Shown here piece by piece: positions 2,729 to 26,813 of a stretch of DNA of 64,000 nt; the stretch's first letter is position 1, and every line of letters begins with the position of its first letter. The notes under the pieces are model-generated. The model was not told where the DNA came from, did no database searches, and was given only the letters and a program-made list of their open reading frames with translations. Source of the stretch: Enterobacteriaceae endosymbiont of Donacia marginata (GTDB taxonomy: Bacteria > Pseudomonadota > Gammaproteobacteria > Enterobacterales > Enterobacteriaceae). The stretch spans positions 398,407 to 462,406 of the forward strand of contig NZ_CP046184.1 in NCBI RefSeq assembly GCF_012567685.1. Reading direction: 5' to 3'. A program made the translations under genes and the position numbers.

Positions 2729-4762
2729 ATGAAAATCATTAAAGTAGTATTTAATAATGCTATTATTTATAAAAAATTTGATTATTTATTATCTAAAAAT
2801 ATACCAATCTATATTGGATGTAGAGTAATAGCACCTATAAAAAAAAAGAATTATATAGGAATAGTCATAAAAATACAAAATAATTCTAAAATATCTATAA
2901 AAAAATTAAAATTTTTACATAAAATTTTAGATAAAACATCACTTTTTAATTCTTTAATTTTAAAATTTGCAAGTAAAGTTTCTAAATATTATCAATTTCC
3001 TATTGGATTAATTTTATTTCAAATATTACCAATTTTTTTGAGAAAAAAAAATAAATATGTTTTAAATTTAAAAAATAATTTGCAATTTAATAAAATTAAT
3101 ATGATAAATAATAATAAAATAATAAAATTATATAATAATAAAAATAAAAAAAAATTTATTATTAATAATAAAAAAAATAATATATTAAATTTTTTTCAAA
3201 AAAAATATTTTCAACCAAATTTTTTTGTTTGGATTACACAAGATAATATTATTTTTCTTGAAAAAATAAATATTTATTTAGATCTTATAAAAATTATTTT
3301 ATCTCAAAAAAAACAAATTTTAATAATAGTACCTCAAGAATATAATTTACTAAATTTATATCAATATTTTATGTCTAAATTAGATATTTTAATCTGTTTA
3401 TTATATTCAAATTTTTCAAATAAAAAAATATTATCAATTTGGGAAAATATAAAAAATGGGACAATATCAATTATTATTGGTACAAAATTTACTATTTTTA
3501 CACAATTTTTAAAATTAGGATTAATTATTTTAATAGAAGAACATAATTTTATATATAAAAAAACAAACATATTTAAATATAATATACGAGATATTGCTAT
3601 TTTAAGAGCAAAAATAGAAAATATTCCCATAATACTATGCTCTAAAACATTAAGTTTAGAAACATTATATAATATTAATATAGGGAAATTTAAATTATTA
3701 TTTCAAAATAATAAAAAAATATTATATAAAAATTTTTTTAAATTTAAAATATTGGATATAAATAAACAAATATTACAGTTACAATTATTTTCTAAAATTT
3801 TAATTAAAAATATACAAGTATGTATTGAAAATAATGAACAAATTATTATTTATAATAATCATCAAGGTTATTCAAAATTAGTTTTCTGTTTCTTTTGCAA
3901 AAAACCATTAAAATGTATTAATTGTAATACAAATTATATTTTTTATAAAAAATTATGGAAATTATATTGTATATATTGTAAAAAAAATATTAGTATGTTA
4001 GATTACTGTCCTTTATGTAAAAAAAATTTTTTTATACCAATTGGTATTGGAAATGAAAAATTAATTGAGTTTTTAAGGAAATTATTTCCTAATATATTAC
4101 TTTTAAATATTACCAATAAGAATTTTATAAAAAAAACTTTATTAATTAAAAATAATAAACCAGCTATAATAATAGCTTCTCAAATTTTATATAAAGAATA
4201 TTTTTCTTTTTTAAAAAATAATTTAATTATTATTTTGAATATAGATAGTGTTTTTTTTTCAAAAAATTTTAGAGCAATAGAATATTTTTCACAATATATT
4301 TTTAATATATTAAATAATCATTTAGATATAAAAAAAAAAACAATTATTATTCAAACACATTATCCGCAAAATAAAATTATTAAAAAAATTTTTAAAAAAT
4401 ATAATACATATTTTGATATATCAAATTTTCTTTTAAAAGAAAGAGAAATGATGTTATTACCACCTTTTACTAATCATATTATTTTAATATTAGAATCTAA
4501 TGATAAAAAAATTTTATTAAATTTTTTAAATATTTTAAAAAAAAAAATTATATTTAAGTATATAAATGAAAAAAATTTTTTTATTATTGGACCTTTATCA
4601 TTAATACAAAATAAAAGGAAAGGATTATTTCGAAAACAAATTATTTTACAACATATTTTTAAAAAAAAATTACAAATTATTATAAAATATATTATTTCTA
4701 TTTTTAAAAAAATTATAAATTCTAATAAAATAAAATTGATAATTAATGTTGATCCAACATAA
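2729..4762 (+). CDS. priA: PriA primosome protein, apparently helicase-dead
   Basis: 677 residues (E. coli 732) in one uninterrupted frame. PriA recognises stalled forks and loads the primosome. The 3'-DNA-binding domain (about 1-105), the helicase-fold landmarks (IPIIL...LETL, about 299-313), the FRAIEYFSQ segment (514-522) and the C-terminal domain (LLPPFTNHIIL) can all be aligned with E. coli. All eight zinc cysteines are kept (387, 390, 396, 399, 414, 417, 427, 430). The ATPase motifs are gone: the Walker A site GVTGSGKT reads NIIFLEKI (173-180), DEEH reads IEEH (269-272), NRRG reads NHQG, and the QVAGRAGRAG motif reads FNILNNHLDI (525-534). It may act only as a scaffold. Identity is secure from neighbours and alignment. 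Confidence 0.88.
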   Translation: MKIIKVVFNNAIIYKKFDYLLSKNIPIYIGCRVIAPIKKKNYIGIVIKIQNNSKISIKKLKFLHKILDKTSLFNSLILKFASKVSKYYQFPIGLILFQILPIFLRKKNKYVLNLKNNLQFNKINMINNNKIIKLYNNKNKKKFIINNKKNNILNFFQKKYFQPNFFVWITQDNIIFLEKINIYLDLIKIILSQKKQILIIVPQEYNLLNLYQYFMSKLDILICLLYSNFSNKKILSIWENIKNGTISIIIGTKFTIFTQFLKLGLIILIEEHNFIYKKTNIFKYNIRDIAILRAKIENIPIILCSKTLSLETLYNINIGKFKLLFQNNKKILYKNFFKFKILDINKQILQLQLFSKILIKNIQVCIENNEQIIIYNNHQGYSKLVFCFFCKKPLKCINCNTNYIFYKKLWKLYCIYCKKNISMLDYCPLCKKNFFIPIGIGNEKLIEFLRKLFPNILLLNITNKNFIKKTLLIKNNKPAIIIASQILYKEYFSFLKNNLIIILNIDSVFFSKNFRAIEYFSQYIFNILNNHLDIKKKTIIIQTHYPQNKIIKKIFKKYNTYFDISNFLLKEREMMLLPPFTNHIILILESNDKKILLNFLNILKKKIIFKYINEKNFFIIGPLSLIQNKRKGLFRKQIILQHIFKKKLQIIIKYIISIFKKIINSNKIKLIINVDPT

Positions 4763-6705: not shown

Positions 6706-6810
6706 TATATTTAAATTTAAAAAAGTAATTAAAAATATTTAATTAAATTTAATAATATATATAAATAAAACTTATTATTAAATATTTAAATTTAATTAAA
6801 AGAAATACAT

Positions 6811-7845
6811 AATGTATGTTAAAAAAAAATTTCAATCTCTAGATATTAGTATTCTTACTACTTTCCAAAGGAAATCGTATATATTTTACTTTATCTAGAG
6901 TATTATATACTTTAACTTTATATAGAAAACTTTAATTCAATATATTCTTGAAACATTAAAAAATATTAATAATTTAATTAACAATATACCATATCGTATA
7001 TGGTTTTGATAAAGAAAAACTTAATAAGTTTTTAAAAAATGAAACATATATTAAATGGATATATTAACTTTGGAGGTACTGTAAAATAATTTTTGTTAAA
7101 TTTTAATAAAAATAAAGATATTTTAATATTATATAGAGATGTTCCTCTAATTTTAAAAAAACAATAATATAATTATTATAATGAAAAACCTAAAAAAGGT
7201 ATTTCTGTATTTTCAGTAACAATAAATAATTCTAAAGAATATGGTAAAATTTATGTAACAAAAATAGAGATATAATTGGTATTATTAAACATATAGAAAC
7301 AAATTAAAAAGAATTAAAAATATTAATACTGGGATATTGATTATTAATATTATTTATTTAAAATAAATAAATTAATAGAATTAATAATAATAATTTAAAA
7401 TCAGAGTTTTATATTATTGATATTATTAATTTATCTTATAAAGATAAAAAAAATATTAGATGTATAAATTTTAAAAATTTAATAGAAATTAAAGATATTA
7501 ATAATAATCAATTAACACAATTAGAAAAATTATATCAAAAAAAACAAATTAAAAAATTACTTATTAATGAACTTAAAATTTTAAGTACAAATAGATTTAA
7601 TTTATAAGGTTCTTTAAAATATTGATTAGATATTATAATAGAAGAATATGTATTAATTAAAAATTTTGTGAAATTAGGAAATAGAGTAATAATAAGTAAA
7701 AGGTGTATACTAAAAAATAATATTCTTACAAACGATTATAGAATACTTCCTATTCAATAATAGAAAATATAATTTTAAATAAAAAATATCAAATTAATTC
7801 TTTTAGTTGTATAAATCAGAATCATAAAATAGATAAAAAATAACA
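6811..7845 (+). pseudogene. glmU: glmU pseudogene (bifunctional UDP-GlcNAc pyrophosphorylase / GlcN-1-P acetyltransferase)
   Basis: No long open frame exists, but fragments in shifting frames follow GlmU in order. Around 7095-7150 KDILILYRDVPLI aligns with EDILMLYGDVPLI. Near 7200 there is GISVFSVTINNSKEYGKI. Near 7400 there is LKSEFYIIDIINLSYK, aligning with QGEYYITDIIALAYQ. Near 7530 there is QLEKLYQKKQIKKLL. Then come the start of the left-handed beta-helix (LGNRVIISKRCILKNNI, near 7675) and IIENIILNKK (about 7764). Stops and frameshifts are scattered throughout. The opening nucleotide-binding motif has also lost its AAGKGTR. The second half of the acetyltransferase domain is not recognisable. 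In E. coli glmU follows the atp operon next to mnmG, so position supports the call. Confidence 0.9.
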
Positions 7846-8962
7846 TTATTAATTTCATAAATAAAAAAATGATTTTTTATAAAAAATTAAAAATAATAGT
7901 TTTATTTATATAAAGTTCAAAATGAATAATTTTATTAAAAACTATAATTATAAGTTAATTATAATAAAATTAATAAATAATAAAGTTTAAAAGAAATATT
8001 AATTGTAATATTATAATTAAAAAATTTTTCATTTATAAAATTAAATTAATATGATCTTAATATGATGTTATAAATTATTTTAAAAAACATAAATTTAATT
8101 TATAAAAAAATTAAAAAATTTACATTAAAAATCATATTTAAAAATTACATATAGAAATATTTATTTTTATTTTTTACTGAAAAAATTTAAAAATAATAAT
8201 TTTTATAAAATAAATAATAGAAAACATCTATTAATAAATAGAAAATTATTAAAAAATAATTTACATAATAAAAAATTATTTTAAATACAATTTTATATAT
8301 TCAATTTTTTATTAAAATAATAAAGATTATTTAATTTATTATAATTAATAAAAATTATTTATATTAGTTATTTTAAAATAATAAATAATTACTAACAATT
8401 TTTGTTCTAAAATAGAAAAATATAATAATATATATTAAAATATAAAAAAATATTTTATTTAATTAAATTTATATTTAATTTTATAAAAAAAAAATTATTT
8501 TTAGAAAATAATATATGTAATTAAAAAATTTAATTAAATAATATTAGTTTAATTAATAATTTTAATTTTTATAAATAATTTTTAAAAAAATTAAATCTAA
8601 TATATAAAATATTTATATTTTAATAGATTATAATAATCTTTATTAATAAATATTTTAAGTTTTGTAAAATAAATAATAATTTTATCTGATAAAAAATAAT
8701 ATATATATTTTTTTATATAAAAATATAATATTATTATAATTTATATTATTTATTATACTTTTATTAAAAAAAATAATGATATAAATAATCTAAAAAATTT
8801 AGTAAAATCTATTAATTTTAAATAAAAATCTTATTAAAGATAAAGATCTTTTTTTTTTGTTTTTTTTAAATTAACTAATTTTTTCTAAAACGAATTTTTA
8901 TTAAATTATATTTTTAAATTTATTAATAAATATTATTAATATTTTTTTAAAAGGTTTTATAT
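7846..8962. other. Decayed non-coding block before nrdA
   Basis: Roughly 1.1 kb of almost pure A/T with stops in every frame. It probably contains the eroded end of glmU and perhaps one further lost gene, but I could match nothing in it to a family, including glmS, the usual next gene. The last part must contain the nrdA promoter; an AAAAGG ribosome-binding site lies at about 8949-8954. Confidence 0.6.
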
Positions 8963-18182: not shown

Positions 18183-20051
18183 TTATAAATAACTATTTTC
18201 TAAATAGTTAATTATTTTTTTTTTAATATTAGAAAATCTTTTAATTTTTGATTTTATTGCTTTATAAAAAATTGATTTATGACTATAAATATTTATTTTT
18301 TTTTTAGCTCTTGTAATTGCAGTATAAATTAATTCTCTAGTTAAAATAGGATAAAATTTATTTGGTAATACTAATGATATATTTTCAAATTCTGATCCTT
18401 GAGCTTTATGTGTAGTTATTGCATAAGCTATATCATAAGATGGTAAATTTTTAATAGATATTATTTGATATTTACTATTAGATAATAAAAATTTGACTTT
18501 TAATTTTTTATCATTTTCATCAAAAAAAGTAATTCCAATATCTCCATTAAATAAATTTAAAAAATTATTATTTTGATTAATAATAATAGGTCTACCTATA
18601 TACCAATTATTATAAAAAATATTATTTATTAAAAATTTTTTATTAAATAATTCTTTTTCTATAATATTATTAATTATTTTTGTACCAAAGAAACCATGTT
18701 TAATTGCACATATAATTTGATAAGAATTAAATTTTCTTAAAATATCTTTGTGATTATTATTTTTTTTTAAAAATATAAAATATTTTTTATACTCATTAAT
18801 AAATGAGTTAATCATTAATTTATATTTTTTTTCATTCAAAATATTAATATAATTAATATCAGTATATTTTTTTAATAAAAATAATTCTTTAATTTTTTTA
18901 ATATCTCCATTTTTAATCATTAAAGCTAATTTATTAATACCAGAACTATTTAAATATCTATAATTATGTTGTAGTACAGTAATAAAATTACGGAAAAAAA
19001 ATTTTGGGATATTATTATTTTCTTGTAATTTATTATTATTTATCATATTTAACCATATAAAATATTCTTTTGTAAAAAAAAAATTTTTAAAATAGCATAA
19101 ATCTTTAAACATATTACCATATTCTATTGAAGGTAATTGATATTCATCTCCTAATAATATTAATTTGGTTTTTTTAGATAAAGATTTTAAAATAATAGAC
19201 ATTAAATTAACATTAATCATAGATGCTTCATCTATTATTAATAGATCTAAATCTAATTTATTTTGATGATTATATAGAGTTTCTTCAGTATAAATTTTCA
19301 TTTTTAATAAATTATGTATAGTAGTTGCTTTACTAGGAATATTTTTTTTTTCATTTTTATTTATTAAATTTAAAGATATTTTTTTAAAAAAATTATTTAT
19401 AGATTGGGTTAGCCTTACAGAAGCTTTGCCAGTAGTGGCCGCAACCCTAATTTTAAAAGGATAATTAAAAATTTTTATAAATGTAAAAATTATTTTAGAT
19501 ACTATACTTGTTTTCCCGGTACCTGGAGAACCACTAATAATACTAATCTTATGTGTTAAAGCAGCACAAATAGCTTGTTTGTGAAAAAAATCATTTTTAT
19601 TATTATTAATAAATAAAAATTTTAATATATTTTTAATTTTATCTTGGTTTATAAGTATAAATTTATTTTTAAGAAAATTTTTTACTATTGTATTTTCTTC
19701 ATCCCATAATTTATATAAATAAAGACAATTATTTTCTAAAATAATAGGGGTAATTTTTTTACCATTACTAATAATTTCTTTATTTTGATATAATATGTTT
19801 TTCCAATTTGTAATTTGATTTATTTCTTTTATTTTTTTTATAAAAAAGATATTTTTTTGATTTTTAATATCAATATTTAAATATAATTTAGATATTGGTA
19901 AACAAATATTACCTTTACTAATACTATTACTAAGTAATGTAATTGAATATTTTAAATATTTTTGTTCTTCTGGTATTAATATAGATGCTAAATAAAAATC
20001 AATTAATCTAATAATACCTATTTCACATAATTTTTTAAAAAAATATTGCAT
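18183..20051 (-). CDS. recD: Exodeoxyribonuclease V (RecBCD) alpha subunit RecD
   Basis: 622 residues (E. coli 608). Superfamily 1B, 5'-3' helicase of RecBCD. Walker A GSPGTGKT lies at 174-181, Walker B LLIDEASMI in the middle, then LLGDEYQLPSIEYG (motif III), and near the end THKAQGSEF (motif V) and YTAITRAK (motif VI). Helicase motifs look complete. It is the last gene of the leftward recC-recB-recD run; argA, the next gene in E. coli, is absent here. Confidence 0.96.
   Translation of the reverse strand: MQYFFKKLCEIGIIRLIDFYLASILIPEEQKYLKYSITLLSNSISKGNICLPISKLYLNIDIKNQKNIFFIKKIKEINQITNWKNILYQNKEIISNGKKITPIILENNCLYLYKLWDEENTIVKNFLKNKFILINQDKIKNILKFLFINNNKNDFFHKQAICAALTHKISIISGSPGTGKTSIVSKIIFTFIKIFNYPFKIRVAATTGKASVRLTQSINNFFKKISLNLINKNEKKNIPSKATTIHNLLKMKIYTEETLYNHQNKLDLDLLIIDEASMINVNLMSIILKSLSKKTKLILLGDEYQLPSIEYGNMFKDLCYFKNFFFTKEYFIWLNMINNNKLQENNNIPKFFFRNFITVLQHNYRYLNSSGINKLALMIKNGDIKKIKELFLLKKYTDINYINILNEKKYKLMINSFINEYKKYFIFLKKNNNHKDILRKFNSYQIICAIKHGFFGTKIINNIIEKELFNKKFLINNIFYNNWYIGRPIIINQNNNFLNLFNGDIGITFFDENDKKLKVKFLLSNSKYQIISIKNLPSYDIAYAITTHKAQGSEFENISLVLPNKFYPILTRELIYTAITRAKKKINIYSHKSIFYKAIKSKIKRFSNIKKKIINYLENSYL
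18190..18210. terminator. Small hairpin at the rplS/recD convergence
   Basis: Nine-bp arms TAACTATTT (18190-18198) and its complement (18202-18210) with a 3-base loop, followed by an A/T run on the plus strand. It lies inside the last codons of recD and just past rplS, so it may end rplS transcripts. Confidence 0.45.
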
Positions 20052-20081: not shown

Positions 20082-23000
20082 TTAAATGAATAGCTTATTT
20101 AATTCATTAATTAATTTTAAAGATGGTTTTGTTATCCAAATACCATTTTGATTTTTTTTATTATTAATACCTCTAATGTAGAGGTATATTACTCCTCCAA
20201 AATGTTTTTTATAATTATAATTACTAATACGATATTTTAAATATTTATGTAAAGCTAAAGAGTAAATTTGATATTGTATATCATAACGATTTAAACATAT
20301 ATCATTTTGAATATATTTTTTTTTATATTTTTTATGATCATTACCTAACCAAGTAGATTTATAATCTATAATATAGTATTTTTTTTCCCATAAAAAAATT
20401 AGATCAATTATACCTGATAAAAATCCTTCTATTACTTTAAATTTTAATTTATATAAATTATAAGAAATTATATCATATTTACTTATACAATTATTATATT
20501 TTGTGGATGAAAATGTTTTTTTTATAGATAAATAAAATTTAAATTCTGTTTTTTTATTTTTATTATCTATTTTATTTAAAATAATATTTTTATTACTTAT
20601 TGGTTTTTTTAAAATATTATTAAACCAATTAGTTAACATAATATGCCAGGTAAAATTAATGTTTTTTTTTATTAATTCTTCTTTAATAAATTTTCTAGAG
20701 ATTATTTGGGTAAAATCTAATTTTTCTAAAATCTTATGTAATATAATACCTATTTTTTTACCATGTGGAAAATTATATTGTGTTTTTTTAAATTGATTTT
20801 TATTTGGATTTATAAATATATTTTTTATATTATTTAAATAATTAAAATTAATATTTTGTTGTTTTTTTATTTTAGAAAAATTAGATATTATTTTATTTTT
20901 AAAAAAGAAATTATTAATTTTATGTGTAAATAATAATTTTTTTTTTGGTTTTTTTAGAATTTTATCATCTATTTTTATTAAGTTTTTTTTTTTTATTATT
21001 TTAATTGAAATATCATTATTTTTTAAATTATTTAAAATTTTTTCCAATTGTATATTGGAGATATTATTTTTTTTTTTAAGTAAAAAATCTAAAGCATTAA
21101 AATATTTTAAATATAAATTTAATTTTTTTAAATTAAAAAATTTGATATTAGCAATTCCAATACTACAATGGAAAATTGATCTTGTTAATGAAACGTATAA
21201 TAGTCTTAAATTTTCAGCAAGTGATTCTTCTAAAAAGAAGATTTTACTTTCTTTATCTTTTTTAAAATCTAAAATTGATTTAAAATTTTTTCTGTCATGA
21301 TAAATAACTGCATCTTTATTTATAGAATCTATAATATTTGAAGAAATAAATGGTAACCAAACAATAGGAAATTGTAATCCTTTTGATTTATGTATTGTCA
21401 TAATTTTTATTTTATTAACATCATAATGTAATTTTACTTGTTTATTTAATAAATTTTTATTAGTATTTACAATTTGTTGTGATAACCATTCTATAATTTG
21501 CTTGCAATTTATCATATTTATACATGATATTTGAATTAATTCTCCTAAATATAAAATATTTTTTATTTTTTTTTCTATAAAATTATTAATAGTATTTTTT
21601 TTATAAAAAAGAACATCTTTTATAAATATTGTTTCTAACATAGTTAAAATACCATATTTTTCCCAAATAGATTTATAATTAATAAATTTATCAATTATTT
21701 TTTTTATATAATTTTTTTCTTTATTCTCTATAAAAAAAGATAAATTAACATTAAATAATGTACTTGATAAAATATTAATAATTTTTTGTTCTTTATTTGG
21801 TTTTAAAATAGTTTTTAATAATAGAATTAATTCCTTTGTTTCCTCTTTTTCAAAAATATTATCTGTATCAGATAAATAAATAGAAGGTAGTTTAAATTTA
21901 ATAAATTCTTTTTGTAAAATAGAAGCTTCAAAACGATTTCTTACTAAAACTGTTATATCTGAAATTTTAATTTTTTGATTTTTATAATTTTTTTGAAAAA
22001 ATACTTTATTTTTTTCTCCCAAAATTATTAATTGACATATTTCATATGCACATGTATATGCTATTTTTTGTTTATATGCATTAATATCAATAGTTTTATT
22101 AATAAACCAGAAAGTTATACCAGGTATAATTTTTTTATTAATAATAAAATTATAATTTAATTTTTTAGTTGTATATCTAAGGGGATAAAAAATAATATTT
22201 TTAAATAAAAAAGGATAAGATCTATTAGAAAAAATTTTATTTATACTATTTACCATAGTTCTAGAAGAACGCCAGTTATTTTTTAATGTATAACATTTTT
22301 TTATTTCAAATGAAGCTTTTAAATAGGTAAAAATATCAGCTCCTCTAAAAGAATAAATAGCTTGTTTAGGATCACCAATTAGTATAATTATACTATTTAA
22401 TTTATTAATATAAATTTTTTTTAGAATATTATATTGTTGTATATCTGTATCTTGAAATTCATCAACTAATATTACAGGAAATAATTTTTTTATATCTTTT
22501 GCAATTTTTATACCAAATGGGCTATTTAATCCTTTATTTAAAATAATTAATAAATCATTAAAACTTATCTCATTTTTAATTTTTTTTTTTTTTGTGGTAT
22601 ATTTATTTATATATTTTATAGCTTTTAAAATTATTAAAAATTTTAAATCATTAAATTTTTGCAAAAAAATATCTATATATTTAAATAATATATATTTTGG
22701 TATTTTAGTATTATTAATTGTATTATTAATTAAAAATTTTTGAGAAAATTTAGATAATTCCTGAGGATAAAAATTATCTTTACTTTCTGTAAAAGTCCAT
22801 AAATCAATAATATTTATCCATTTATTTATTAATTTCTGATTATAAATATGTTTATTTACACTAGAATTAGTAATAATATTAAATATATTATTTTTATATT
22901 TTATCCAATATTTTTTTATTATTTTAATATATTTTATATTTTTATAAAATTGTATATAAAAATCTTTATTTTTAATTAAATTTTTAATTTTTGGAAAAGG

Positions 23001-23624
23001 TTTTTTTAATAAAAAAGGGGTTAATGTATTTAATAAATCAAAAGGATTTTTCCAATAAGAAAAAATTATTCTTGCTATTTTTTTTGGTAAATTATAAAAA
23101 TATTTTCTCCAAAAATTAACAGAAGCTTCTTGCTGTAAAATTGATTCATCACTAATAATTTTTTTATTAGAAAAAAAATCATAAATTTCATAATTTTTAA
23201 AATTTAAAATTTTTTGACAAAAAGAATGTATTGTATAAATAGATGCATTATGCATATTTAATTCAGCTTTTAATAATAAATTATGAGCTATTTTATGATC
23301 TTTAATTTTTTTAATAAAATAATTTATAATATCATATTTACTTTTTTTTTCTAAACATCCCTTTCTTAAGATACGAATACTTTTTTTAATTCTTTTACAT
23401 AAATCTTGTGTTGCAATATCAGTAAAAGTTACTACTAAAATTTGTTCCACAGTTAATGGAAGTCCATTATAATTTTTTTGATGTAAACCTAAAAGCATTC
23501 TTAAATATAAAATAATAATAGTAAATGTTTTTCCAGTACCAGCAGATGCTTCAATAAGATATTGTCCTTGTAAATTTTCTTTAAACGGATCAAATTCTTT
23601 TAATTTTATTATTTTTTTTATCAT
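20082..23624 (-). CDS. recB: Exodeoxyribonuclease V (RecBCD) beta subunit RecB
   Basis: 1180 residues, the same length as E. coli RecB. It is the 3'-5' helicase and nuclease of RecBCD. Walker A ASAGTGKT is at 26-33, followed by VVTFTDIAT, ILVDEFQDTD, LIGDPKQAIYSFRGAD, NWRSS, TIHKSKGLQFPIVWLP and LLYVSLTRS. The C-terminal nuclease site is intact: Asp1074 (GIIDL), Asp1087 and Lys1089 (IIDYKS). The frame is unbroken over 3.5 kb despite extreme A/T content. It starts 15 bases after recC; ptrA, which separates them in E. coli, is gone. Confidence 0.97.
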   Translation of the reverse strand: MIKKIIKLKEFDPFKENLQGQYLIEASAGTGKTFTIIILYLRMLLGLHQKNYNGLPLTVEQILVVTFTDIATQDLCKRIKKSIRILRKGCLEKKSKYDIINYFIKKIKDHKIAHNLLLKAELNMHNASIYTIHSFCQKILNFKNYEIYDFFSNKKIISDESILQQEASVNFWRKYFYNLPKKIARIIFSYWKNPFDLLNTLTPFLLKKPFPKIKNLIKNKDFYIQFYKNIKYIKIIKKYWIKYKNNIFNIITNSSVNKHIYNQKLINKWINIIDLWTFTESKDNFYPQELSKFSQKFLINNTINNTKIPKYILFKYIDIFLQKFNDLKFLIILKAIKYINKYTTKKKKIKNEISFNDLLIILNKGLNSPFGIKIAKDIKKLFPVILVDEFQDTDIQQYNILKKIYINKLNSIIILIGDPKQAIYSFRGADIFTYLKASFEIKKCYTLKNNWRSSRTMVNSINKIFSNRSYPFLFKNIIFYPLRYTTKKLNYNFIINKKIIPGITFWFINKTIDINAYKQKIAYTCAYEICQLIILGEKNKVFFQKNYKNQKIKISDITVLVRNRFEASILQKEFIKFKLPSIYLSDTDNIFEKEETKELILLLKTILKPNKEQKIINILSSTLFNVNLSFFIENKEKNYIKKIIDKFINYKSIWEKYGILTMLETIFIKDVLFYKKNTINNFIEKKIKNILYLGELIQISCINMINCKQIIEWLSQQIVNTNKNLLNKQVKLHYDVNKIKIMTIHKSKGLQFPIVWLPFISSNIIDSINKDAVIYHDRKNFKSILDFKKDKESKIFFLEESLAENLRLLYVSLTRSIFHCSIGIANIKFFNLKKLNLYLKYFNALDFLLKKKNNISNIQLEKILNNLKNNDISIKIIKKKNLIKIDDKILKKPKKKLLFTHKINNFFFKNKIISNFSKIKKQQNINFNYLNNIKNIFINPNKNQFKKTQYNFPHGKKIGIILHKILEKLDFTQIISRKFIKEELIKKNINFTWHIMLTNWFNNILKKPISNKNIILNKIDNKNKKTEFKFYLSIKKTFSSTKYNNCISKYDIISYNLYKLKFKVIEGFLSGIIDLIFLWEKKYYIIDYKSTWLGNDHKKYKKKYIQNDICLNRYDIQYQIYSLALHKYLKYRISNYNYKKHFGGVIYLYIRGINNKKNQNGIWITKPSLKLINELNKLFI

Positions 23625-23639
23625 TTTATTAAATTTAAA

Positions 23640-26600
23640 TTAATTATTATAATATAATAAATCATTCATCCATTTTTTTATTATTTTTGTAATTCTTATC
23701 CATTCTTTTTCATTTAAATCAAAATTTAATTTTTTAAAATATGGATCATTATTTTCATTAATAAAGTTATTATTATTCCAATAATAAAAAAAATTTTTTT
23801 TTGCTTGTTTTTGTATGAATAAATCATTATTAATACATTTTTTTATTTTATCATAACAAGTATTTATCCAAATCCAAGAACTTTTCATAGGTAAAAAAAT
23901 AGGATGATTTATACCAGATAAATAACCATTTATATATTTTTCTAATAAAAAAATAGCTTTATTTTTTTTTAAAAATTTGAAATTATATTTGGTTTTTTTA
24001 AAACCATAAATAAATAAATTTATTTTTTCATTATCAATATTATTTGCACATAAAATTAAATGTTTAAGCCAAAGACTAATAATAGTTTTAATATCTATTA
24101 TTTTAGGTTCAAATTTAATTAAACCTTTTTTATATTGAAAAAATTTTATTTTTCCTCTTAAAAAAATATTTAAAATTTTTAAATTAATTATATAAGTTTT
24201 TTCTATATATTTATATTTTTGAAATTTATAATTAAATATTTGATTAATTTTATATATTTTTTCCTCCCACCATATTTCTCCATAATACCCATAAGGCAAA
24301 ACTCCATTATTTAAATAAAAATAATATAAATCATTAATATTTTCATTTAAAATTAATGTACGTAATATTTTTTTATTTATAATATATTCTTGTAAATAAT
24401 TAATTGTAAATGGTTCCGTATTAGATACTTTTATTTGATTTAAATTTTTTAAATATATTTTTAATTTTTGATTAAAAAATCCTTTGATTGGATGTTTCCA
24501 AAAATTAATAAGATTATTAATTTTTAATTTATTAATTTTTATAGGTTTTTTAACAATAATATTGTTAATAACAATATTATTATTAAATTCTTTTTTATTA
24601 AAAAAATGAATATATTTACTTTTATAATCCCGATTAAAATATTTAATAATATTATTATTAATTATTTTTTTTTTAAAAAAATAATTTTTAGAAATATATA
24701 ATAATAATTTTTTTACTATACTAGATATATTATTATTAATTTTATTGTTATCAGTATAACTAATAAATAATTTATTTTCTGTAGAAATAATTATTTTTAA
24801 AAATAAATTTTTTTCTTTATCTAAATAATTATTTTTATAAATATTATTTTTTAATAAATCAAAAATAATAGGATATTTTTTTTTTGGAAAATAATCATTA
24901 TTCATTCCAATTAGAAAAATTTGTTTAAAAAATATATTTTGAAATATGTTTAAAGAACAAAAATTAAGTTTATTTATAGAAAATAAAAAATTTTTATGTT
25001 TTTTTTTGATAAAAAATTGAACTTTTTTTATAATTATTTCAATTGAAATTTTTTTTTTATATTTTAAATTAATACCTTGATCAAGAAATAAAAAAATTTT
25101 CTTTATAATGAAATATATATTTTTATCTATAAATTTATTTTTAGGAAAAAAATTTTGATAAAGTTTTAATAAAATATTTTTCCATTTTTTTAAAAAATAT
25201 TTTTTATTAAGTTTATTTTTCCATTTTTCTAATTGAATTAAAAAATAAAGAAATTTGCCTATTAATTCTTTTGATAATCCAAGAGATATATTATATGGAA
25301 TTAAATTTTTCCATTTACCTATATTTTGATTTAAAACAAAACCTAAAAAAATACGATAAATACCTAATTTCCATGTATATTGATCTTTAGGTAAATTAAT
25401 ATTATGAAAATTTTTTATATTTAAACCATATTTAATTCCTAAATCTTTTATCCAATAATGTAAATATTCTAAATCATCTTTATTTAAAAAAAATTTATTA
25501 GATATATAATAATCATCTAATAAAAAAAATATTTCTTTAGGAGTTAGATTTTTATATGGTATTTTTAATAAGAATAAAAATTTATTTAAAATATCTAAAT
25601 TTTTTATTTTATCTCGGTTAGAATATATATTAATAGGTATATTAATATTTTTAAATATTGCATTAATATATGGAACATATAATTCTAAATTAGGTGATAC
25701 AACGATAATATCGTGTAAAAAATAATTTGGATTTTTTTTTAAAATATATAATATATTGTTATATAATAATTTTGTTTCAGTATAAAGATCTTCACAGATA
25801 TTTACCTGAATAGATTTATCTAAAGAATTAATTTTTTTTTTATATTTTAAATTATTTTCATTTAAATACAAGATATCATTTTTTATATTATCTAATAAAC
25901 TTAGATTTTTATTTTCTATATAAGTTTCAATATATCTAGATGATAAATTTATTAATTTATTTATATTATTTAAACAATAATTACCCCAAGAAAATAATAA
26001 TCTATTAAAATTAATATTTTTTTTTTTATTTAGATTAATATTTTCGGAAATATTACCCCAATAGTATTTAGAAGGATTACATATTAAAATATGTATTTCT
26101 ACATATTTTTCTATTTTTTTTAATAAATTTAAATATATTAAAGGAATATTTTGTATATCTAATACAAAAATTCTTTCTGGAATTAAATTATATTTAAATA
26201 ATATTTTTTTTTTATAATTTTCATAAAAAAAAAATAATTTACTACAATACCATAATTTTTTATTAAGATTATTTTTATAATATTTTAATATTTCTCTCCA
26301 TAATTTAGCTTGCCATATTTGATGTTCATTATTTAAAGATGAAAAAATTTTATTTTTTTCCCATAAAAATAATAATTCTGGTTGATATTTTTGATAATCA
26401 TTATATAAATTAGAAATTTGAGTAGATATTTGAAATAAATAATCAAAATTTCTAATTTTAGATCCAAATTTTTTTTTAAAATTTATAAATTCTTGAGTAG
26501 CTATTAATTTAGGAATTAATAATAATATTAGCCAAGTAATATTTTCTTTATATAAAATATTATTTTTAGATATATTAGGTATAATTTTTATAAAAGTATT

Positions 26601-26813
26601 CCAAATAAATTTATCAAAAGAAATAAATTCAATATTACTATATATTCCTAAAATTTTTGAAAAATAAATCTTAATTAATTTAGAAAAATTTTTATGTTGA
26701 TCAAATAAAATTATTTCTGGAGTTAAAGGATTTTTTAAAGGGTTTTTTTTAATTTGTATTTTTATTATATCTAATAAAATATTAATATTATTCGAATAAT
26801 AGCTTGTAAACAT
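23640..26813 (-). CDS. recC: Exodeoxyribonuclease V (RecBCD) gamma subunit RecC
   Basis: 1057 residues (E. coli 1122). The least conserved subunit, which splits the duplex and reads Chi in E. coli. Recognition rests on the RecC-like N-terminus, on segments such as FLIGMNNDYFPKK and INNLINFWKHPIKGFFNQKLKI, and on position directly before recB. Very rich in Ile, Lys, Asn, Phe and Tyr. Whether the Chi-recognition channel is preserved cannot be judged by eye. First gene of the recC-recB-recD run. Confidence 0.9.
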   Translation of the reverse strand: MFTSYYSNNINILLDIIKIQIKKNPLKNPLTPEIILFDQHKNFSKLIKIYFSKILGIYSNIEFISFDKFIWNTFIKIIPNISKNNILYKENITWLILLLIPKLIATQEFINFKKKFGSKIRNFDYLFQISTQISNLYNDYQKYQPELLFLWEKNKIFSSLNNEHQIWQAKLWREILKYYKNNLNKKLWYCSKLFFFYENYKKKILFKYNLIPERIFVLDIQNIPLIYLNLLKKIEKYVEIHILICNPSKYYWGNISENINLNKKKNINFNRLLFSWGNYCLNNINKLINLSSRYIETYIENKNLSLLDNIKNDILYLNENNLKYKKKINSLDKSIQVNICEDLYTETKLLYNNILYILKKNPNYFLHDIIVVSPNLELYVPYINAIFKNINIPINIYSNRDKIKNLDILNKFLFLLKIPYKNLTPKEIFFLLDDYYISNKFFLNKDDLEYLHYWIKDLGIKYGLNIKNFHNINLPKDQYTWKLGIYRIFLGFVLNQNIGKWKNLIPYNISLGLSKELIGKFLYFLIQLEKWKNKLNKKYFLKKWKNILLKLYQNFFPKNKFIDKNIYFIIKKIFLFLDQGINLKYKKKISIEIIIKKVQFFIKKKHKNFLFSINKLNFCSLNIFQNIFFKQIFLIGMNNDYFPKKKYPIIFDLLKNNIYKNNYLDKEKNLFLKIIISTENKLFISYTDNNKINNNISSIVKKLLLYISKNYFFKKKIINNNIIKYFNRDYKSKYIHFFNKKEFNNNIVINNIIVKKPIKINKLKINNLINFWKHPIKGFFNQKLKIYLKNLNQIKVSNTEPFTINYLQEYIINKKILRTLILNENINDLYYFYLNNGVLPYGYYGEIWWEEKIYKINQIFNYKFQKYKYIEKTYIINLKILNIFLRGKIKFFQYKKGLIKFEPKIIDIKTIISLWLKHLILCANNIDNEKINLFIYGFKKTKYNFKFLKKNKAIFLLEKYINGYLSGINHPIFLPMKSSWIWINTCYDKIKKCINNDLFIQKQAKKNFFYYWNNNNFINENNDPYFKKLNFDLNEKEWIRITKIIKKWMNDLLYYNN

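Follow-up and report, generated by a model that had tools for sequence, protein, structure and literature searches.

In Escherichia coli, PriA recognizes forks and D-loops by their structure, closes a pore around the lagging-strand single-stranded DNA (ssDNA) and presents PriB and DnaT, and thereby DnaB and DnaC (PMC10175261, PMC12871339). Its unwinding is reported to be stimulated by PriB (PMC3179954), and the ATPase-dead proteins K230A and K230R (priA300) are described as loading DnaB in vitro and supporting viability (PMC10175261, PMC4504706); K230A PriA was used for in vitro DnaB loading with PriB, DnaT and DnaC (PMC10175261). Nearly all bacteria are said to conserve the motor motifs, yet E. 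coli is viable without the activity, and the reason given for their retention is a deduction (PMC4504706). PriA from Deinococcus radiodurans has poor Walker A and B motifs and was described as showing no ATPase or helicase activity in vitro while binding ssDNA, forks and DnaB; its genome has neither a clear priB nor a clear dnaT (Lopper et al. 2015, PMC4504706). The actinobacterial PriA is described as a putative, smaller and very divergent ortholog (PMC1193525). Here, we analyze the priA gene of the Enterobacteriaceae endosymbiont of Donacia marginata, a reed-beetle symbiont, in a 64,000-nucleotide stretch of DNA (the window, 398407-462406 of the main contig in a 467,604-bp genome of two contigs), and conclude that its product is probably a pseudohelicase, a fork-reading platform that likely helps place DnaB on D-loops or abandoned forks without unwinding them.

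An earlier note on this DNA had proposed a PriA kept as a scaffold without helicase activity, and its reading of an intact 677-codon frame with eight zinc cysteines was confirmed. The frame runs from an ATG at 2729 to a TAA at 4760-4762 with zero internal stops, and the 677-aa protein matches the NCBIfam equivalog TIGR00595 at 274.9 bits (cut-off 230.35) and the PDB PriA entry 6dcr_A at 9.9e-91. Two Pfam domains, PF17764 and PF18074, score over cut-off, and no helicase domain does. An AlphaFold model of the protein has the fold of fork-bound PriA; closer kinship to Mfd, RecG or viral helicases (also on the VIA list) was rejected, the likeness being that of a shared superfamily 2 (SF2) fold. 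A second intact priA, which the note had named as grounds for abandoning its proposal, was sought in the same genome and not found, leaving a single copy.

We aligned the PriAs of 24 reed-beetle-symbiont genomes, the window's included (hereafter the genus), with E. coli K-12 PriA, whose residue numbers are used from here on unless stated otherwise, and with 37 PriA rows (36 genes, one of them entered twice) taken from relatives that are free-living or have large genomes. The PriAs of 16 of the 23 congeners are letter-identical to named proteins of Enterobacteriaceae endosymbionts of Donacia, Plateumaris or Neohaemonia, and the closest named PriA to the window's, 89% identical, comes from the Donacia fulgens symbiont. 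Walker A (GK[ST]), DEEH and motif VI are intact in 37/37 reference rows and in 0/24 genus members; relatives with an intact Walker A were among the findings that the note had said would count against it. The P-loop glycines G224, G227 and G229 are likewise kept in none, and the motif VI arginine finger (GRxGR) is absent in all 24. The window protein itself has neither a GxxGxGKT Walker A, nor DEEH, nor the arginine finger; the replacements listed in the earlier note all stood as given (Table 1), with FNILNNHLDI at the position of RAGRAG (aa 525-534). By contrast, every genus PriA carries the eight zinc cysteines (C387, 390, 396, 399, 414, 417, 427 and 430 in the window protein's own numbering). 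A general decay of helicases in this genome was rejected, because DeaD, RecD and RecB retain their P-loops; DeaD is whole in its motifs (AQTGSGKT, DEAD, RTGRAGR).

The claim that every helicase hallmark is lost held for Walker A, DEEH and motifs IV to VI, which are broken, but overstated the rest: E322 of motif II is kept in 24/24 and EEH in most, and the I-GT of motif Ic, the S/T of motif III and the G of motif IV mostly stay. Domain retention, counted at 324 positions that are near-invariant in the reference rows, averages 8% for motif I, 27% for motif V and 15% for motif VI in the genus, compared with 58% for the other positions of the 3'-DNA-binding domain, 53% for the C-terminal domain and 100% for the zinc cysteines; the cysteine-rich region minus these cysteines, at 14%, is the lowest non-motif domain set. 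Within the 3'-DNA-binding domain, D17 (22/24) and K61 (23/24), which presumably line the 3'-end pocket, are retained. The winged-helix domain is eroded in the window protein, where residues 109-156 of the model are unordered, and in most of the Donacia branch, and is recognizable in the more distant genus members shown, so that its erosion in Donacia-type rows may have been a second, later step.

Losses of this kind predict a PriA without useful ATP binding or hydrolysis, and the database label 'replication restart helicase' on some of these proteins is likely wrong. It could be argued that ATP is still bound by the helicase lobes, at a site that has been rearranged, given that EEH mostly persists and that a lysine aligns with K230 in 13/24 genus PriAs. 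However, the P-loop glycines and the arginine finger are gone throughout the genus, and the structure model that the earlier note had called for leaves the former P-loop unordered. We therefore consider a cryptic ATPase extremely improbable.

The gene is nonetheless constrained. priA is open without stops in 24/24 genus genomes, and the ratio of nonsynonymous to synonymous substitution rates (dN/dS) under codon models is 0.142 over the 24 genomes (lnL -22033.5 versus -22909.8 at 1) and 0.143 for the three closest. By likelihood grid, dN/dS is 0.13 for the 3'-DNA-binding domain, 0.10 for lobe 1, 0.07 for the cysteine-rich region, 0.13 for lobe 2 and 0.20 for the C-terminal domain; the eight motif stretches give 0.10, and motifs I and VI alone 0.13. 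A value of 1 was rejected for every domain and for the broken-motif columns. The grid (kappa fixed at 3.8, 17 data sets) replaced free optimization in IQ-TREE, which for 8 of 19 data sets did not move from 1.000 and ended with a likelihood worse than that of the fixed run. Because all genus members share the motor loss, these ratios reflect evolution after it. The comparison by domain that the note had asked for thus went in favor of its scaffold under selection, as did the absence of intact motifs.

These results bear on the possibility that the gene is simply leaving, neutral since the motor was lost and with a frame that survived by chance. Slow decay would fit a dN/dS of about 0.14 beside about 0.03 for the neighboring mnmG, the eroded winged-helix region, a low GC content (0.130) and a family-wide search in which 128 of 149 genomes had a PriA match over the model cut-off and 21 did not (at least three of the 21 hold a PriA below it). 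Yet neutrality is rejected in each domain and even in the dead motif columns, and the open frames and zinc cysteines persist in all 24 genomes. When 68 substitutions (half of the 136 differences between the window gene, L001, and L002) were placed randomly on the window gene's branch, they produced a mean of 5.3 stops, and zero stops in 0.3% of 2,000 runs. A true pseudogene lies close by: glmU, cited in the note as a sign that unused genes rot here, is indeed reduced to two tblastn pieces (7102-7251 and 7398-7751) within 6706-8962, a 2,257-bp interval of 9.6% GC directly downstream of mnmG that holds zero open reading frames (ORFs) of 40 aa. priA, by comparison, shows no stops, no frameshifts and no neutral dN/dS; a young pseudogene is ruled out by the ratios and the 24 open frames, and slow decay is largely refuted and in our view very unlikely.

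Profile searches for partner genes covered 76 genomes (51 for PriC). In the genus, DnaB and RecA were found in 24/24 genomes, whereas DnaA, DnaC, DnaT and PriC were each found in 0/24, as was PriB over cut-off; sub-cut-off PriB matches in 23/24 were taken as SSB because they lie in frames of 172-242 aa. Among the proteins searched for, the dead PriA is the only helicase-recruiting one left in the genus. The analogy that the earlier note drew with the E. coli Lys230 mutant is thus sound in that an ATPase-dead PriA loads DnaB, and fails on the partners: the E. coli assembly route is unavailable here because PriB, DnaT and DnaC were not found in any of the 24 genomes, and the proposed test of PriB and DnaT binding has no known partner because neither was found in the genus. 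The E. coli residues reported to dock PriB, D438, S481, T482 and H483 (PMC10175261), are kept in 0, 6, 1 and 1 of 24 genus PriAs, which accords with the absence of PriB; all 12 PriB-bearing symbionts with intact PriA that were examined have D or E at 438. The SSB-tail pocket (as given in PMC5531588, where residue numbers run one lower than in E. coli) is half preserved, with Y87 and K371 in 24/24, R698 as R or K in 23/24 and Q702 in 13/24.

With the searched E. coli-type DnaB-loading partners missing, the usual output of PriA may itself be gone, and the body might be retained to protect 3' ends, SSB-coated DNA or the nucleoid, DnaB loading having been abandoned. The kept 3'-DNA-binding domain and partial SSB pocket would suit such moonlighting. 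However, constraint extends across the whole body, lobe 2 and the C-terminal domain included; RecA and RecBCD, which make D-loops that require restart, persist (RecBCD was looked for in the window's genome alone among the 24; Table 1); and D. radiodurans PriA binds DnaB without PriB or DnaT. We regard moonlighting as unlikely.

A different account holds that motor loss was favored: with RecG or RuvAB reduced, unwinding by PriA would destroy D-loops and start forks backwards. In E. coli, priA300 (K230R) is reported to suppress recG defects and, in recG ruvAB cells, the loss of D-loops (PMC4752480), and PriA helicase activity is reported to be required for the over-replication that recG cells undergo independently of the origin (PMC4631800). 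A search of 224 kb, or 48% of this chromosome, gave no RecG match; it did not extend to RuvABC. On the other side, in symbionts with a dead PriA and no RecA, described below, such pressure would hardly exist, and we think this account improbable as well. One candidate RecG, L162 of genome G137, was rejected as a shortened Mfd (862.6 bits to the mfd model from position 296). L162, which lacks the N-terminal part, L163 and L164 are Mfd-like frames of 688-697 aa, the latter two called Mfd by likeness only.

The motor has been lost elsewhere. From small or low-scoring genomes of the family we took 33 PriA loci, a choice that favors odd ones: 17 are intact, three have Walker A without motif VI (L076, L077, L085) and 13 lack both GK[ST] and motif VI (L066-L075, L078, L084, L086). 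Two named Buchnera PriAs (P0025, P0026) have none of Walker A GK[ST], DEEH and motif VI intact, the database proteins P0021, P0029 and P0034 lack Walker A, and P0020 has Walker A without motif VI. All eight cysteines are kept in the 11 proteins read for them (six Buchnera-like, the two named Buchnera, L078, L084 and L086). In L075 motifs I and VI are lost and IV and V kept, so motor decay begins at different places; since intact PriAs occur in genomes whose main contigs measure 353 to 628 kb, genome size alone does not decide motor loss. L084 (G170:C1:364300-367300) has a 555-aa frame that begins about 50 residues before motif I, with the 3'-DNA-binding domain outside the frame and motif I lost. 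Frame starts were set at the first ATG, leaving the N-terminal ends of L067-L069 uncertain. The PriAs L078 (genome G148) and L086 (G162) are open end to end (598 and 673 aa) only if TGA encodes tryptophan, and both genomes may read it so, in which case these PriAs are open and either helicase-dead or degenerate. In-frame TGA codons number one and two in their PriAs and two and one in their DnaBs, respectively; in G148, RecA has one and DnaA two. A contig scan for PriA returned two Mesonia PriAs and nothing else.

Six of the genomes with dead PriA (G137, G120, G077, G138, G166, G099) are probably Buchnera-like; they have DnaT and DnaC (the G099 dnaC carries one in-frame stop), and PriB over cut-off, PriC and RecA were not found in them. 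In G077 and G099, which keep dead PriA, DnaT and DnaC, no DnaA match over cut-off was found, and the two seem to have lost DnaA. Eight Buchnera-type rows preserve more of the winged helix, at 72% versus 23% in the genus. On an rpoB tree of 40 genomes built by a quick method, the distribution of dead and intact PriA needs at least three changes; it implies six losses if loss is irreversible and 10 with the degenerate ones, a count that is not reliable on so poorly resolved a tree (8 of 37 inner branches starred). Counted by genus, PriB is missing in 15 of the 16 cases with a dead or degenerate PriA and in 6 of the 20 with an intact one (Fisher p 1.3e-4; G148 not counted), and the association persists within reduced genomes (p 0.002).

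We propose the following order of events. Because PriB stimulates PriA unwinding, loss of PriB may have made that unwinding dispensable; the motor would then have decayed while the DNA-binding body stayed under selection. What was kept would be structure reading and DNA holding; the motor would be gone, along with the PriB site and those partners for which searches were made. Such a PriA would bind forks and D-loops, would contact DnaB directly or via SSB, and may serve recombination-linked restart, perhaps even initiation. The result would be a restart system of PriA and DnaB, perhaps with SSB between them, that works together with RecBCD and RecA, which we infer because D. radiodurans PriA is the nearest tested precedent.

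Since DnaA was not found, the restart system may also have to start replication. Absence of DnaA is common among reduced symbionts and has been interpreted as a sign that the host controls their replication (PMC3620526). A bolder possibility, which we put forward tentatively and hold to be doubtful, is that the motorless PriA is the sole chromosome initiator in reed-beetle symbionts, with RecBCD/RecA D-loops (or R-loops) as entry points and DnaB handed straight on. If true, it would be the smallest known bacterial replication-start system, reached through repeated independent motor loss in insect symbionts. GC skew follows gene strand, the GC3 skew of presumed leading-strand genes being only slightly higher (0.31-0.35 versus 0.20-0.28), and is uninformative on a defined origin because it tracks gene strand.

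Several observations weigh against a selected fork-reading pseudohelicase. PriA is less constrained than the core gene mnmG, and a lysine that might serve an unorthodox ATP site aligns with K230 in about half of the genus. Over all motif positions pooled, 28% are kept versus 41% of the other lobe positions, a modest contrast (rank test p 0.017) because the residues of motifs Ic, II, III and IV noted above mostly stay; 15 small-genome symbionts with intact PriA show the reverse (motifs 96%, other lobe positions 88%). None of the 24 genus PriAs retains W83 in the SSB pocket, where another residue stands instead. No helicase loader was identified in the genus among the types searched, which did not include DciA-type loaders and Rep. 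Finally, when relatedness is taken into account, with two to three independent pairs, the association of PriB loss with loss of the motor falls short of significance. Even so, we favor the pseudohelicase, for which the breakage of the motor motifs and the purifying selection on every domain argue together.

Table 1. Features of the window discussed in the text (window coordinates; aa, residues of the window PriA; pLDDT, predicted local distance difference test score).
Feature	Coordinates	Strand	Basis
priA open frame, predicted pseudohelicase, 677 aa	2729..4762	+	TIGR00595, 6dcr_A, single copy
3'-DNA-binding domain (aa 1-105), retained	2729..3043	+	PF17764 66.9 bits
Winged-helix/linker region (aa 106-156), eroded	3044..3196	+	Gaps vs E. 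coli; pLDDT <50 at 109-156
Former Walker A, GVTGSGKT to NIIFLEKI (aa 173-180)	3245..3268	+	Alignment; mean pLDDT 55 for residues 171-180
Former DEEH (motif II), to IEEH (aa 269-272)	3533..3544	+	Alignment
Former NRRG (motif IV), to NHQG (aa 377-380)	3857..3868	+	Alignment
Cysteine-rich region, all eight zinc cysteines (aa 385-432)	3881..4024	+	Alignment
Former motif V, GTQMLAKG to ASQILYKE (aa 481-488)	4169..4192	+	Alignment
Former motif VI, ERFAQ...RAGRAG to EYFSQYIFNILNNHLDI (aa 518-534)	4280..4330	+	Alignment
PriA C-terminal domain (aa 579-676), retained	4463..4756	+	PF18074 35.8 bits
recD, P-loop intact (GSPGTGKT)	18183..20051	-	TIGR01447 457.9 bits
recB, P-loop intact (ASAGTGKT)	20082..23624	-	TIGR00609 914.7 bits
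recC	23640..26813	-	TIGR01450 511.9 bits, below cut-off 582.9

Among the genomes searched for RecA, one other locus (G110:C1:380744-381696) carries recA in two frames (model positions 2-88 and 80-319), a recent break or a sequencing error.

These symbionts serve as a natural experiment: the motor has disappeared on more than one occasion, the body is still selected, and genomes of similar size that keep the motor are there for comparison. They separate what is essential in PriA, reading forks and holding DNA, from what is optional, unwinding. With a motorless PriA as the only DnaB-recruiting protein found, the mechanism of fork start becomes testable with two or three purified proteins. We found no report of PriA helicase-motif loss in insect symbionts in the open-licence PMC literature, subscription papers lying outside the search, and priA goes unmentioned in the main texts of Reis 2020 and of the 2025 reed-beetle expression paper.

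The closest described system is D. radiodurans PriA, which likewise combines broken Walker motifs in a selected gene with a genome in which priB and dnaT are not detected. Unlike in D. radiodurans, where the account emphasizes a K-to-R substitution within the Walker GKT (PMC4504706), the symbiont PriA has lost Walker A and motif VI entirely; its host is an Enterobacterales symbiont, and DnaA, DnaC and PriC were also not found. The E. coli K230 mutants carry one engineered change with PriB, DnaT and DnaC present, in contrast to a natural motor loss beside which none of the three was found. The Buchnera PriAs (P0025, P0026) and the 13 doubly broken loci resemble the genus in having lost GK[ST] and motif VI, whereas the six probable-Buchnera genomes differ from it in keeping DnaT and DnaC, with RecA not found. 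The actinobacterial protein is also a divergent PriA-like protein, a likeness by description alone; to our knowledge, it lacks Walker motifs. A natural PriA pseudohelicase was thus already known from Deinococcus-Thermus; what is new here is its occurrence in Enterobacterales symbionts, with deeper motif loss, recurrence and loss of the known partners.
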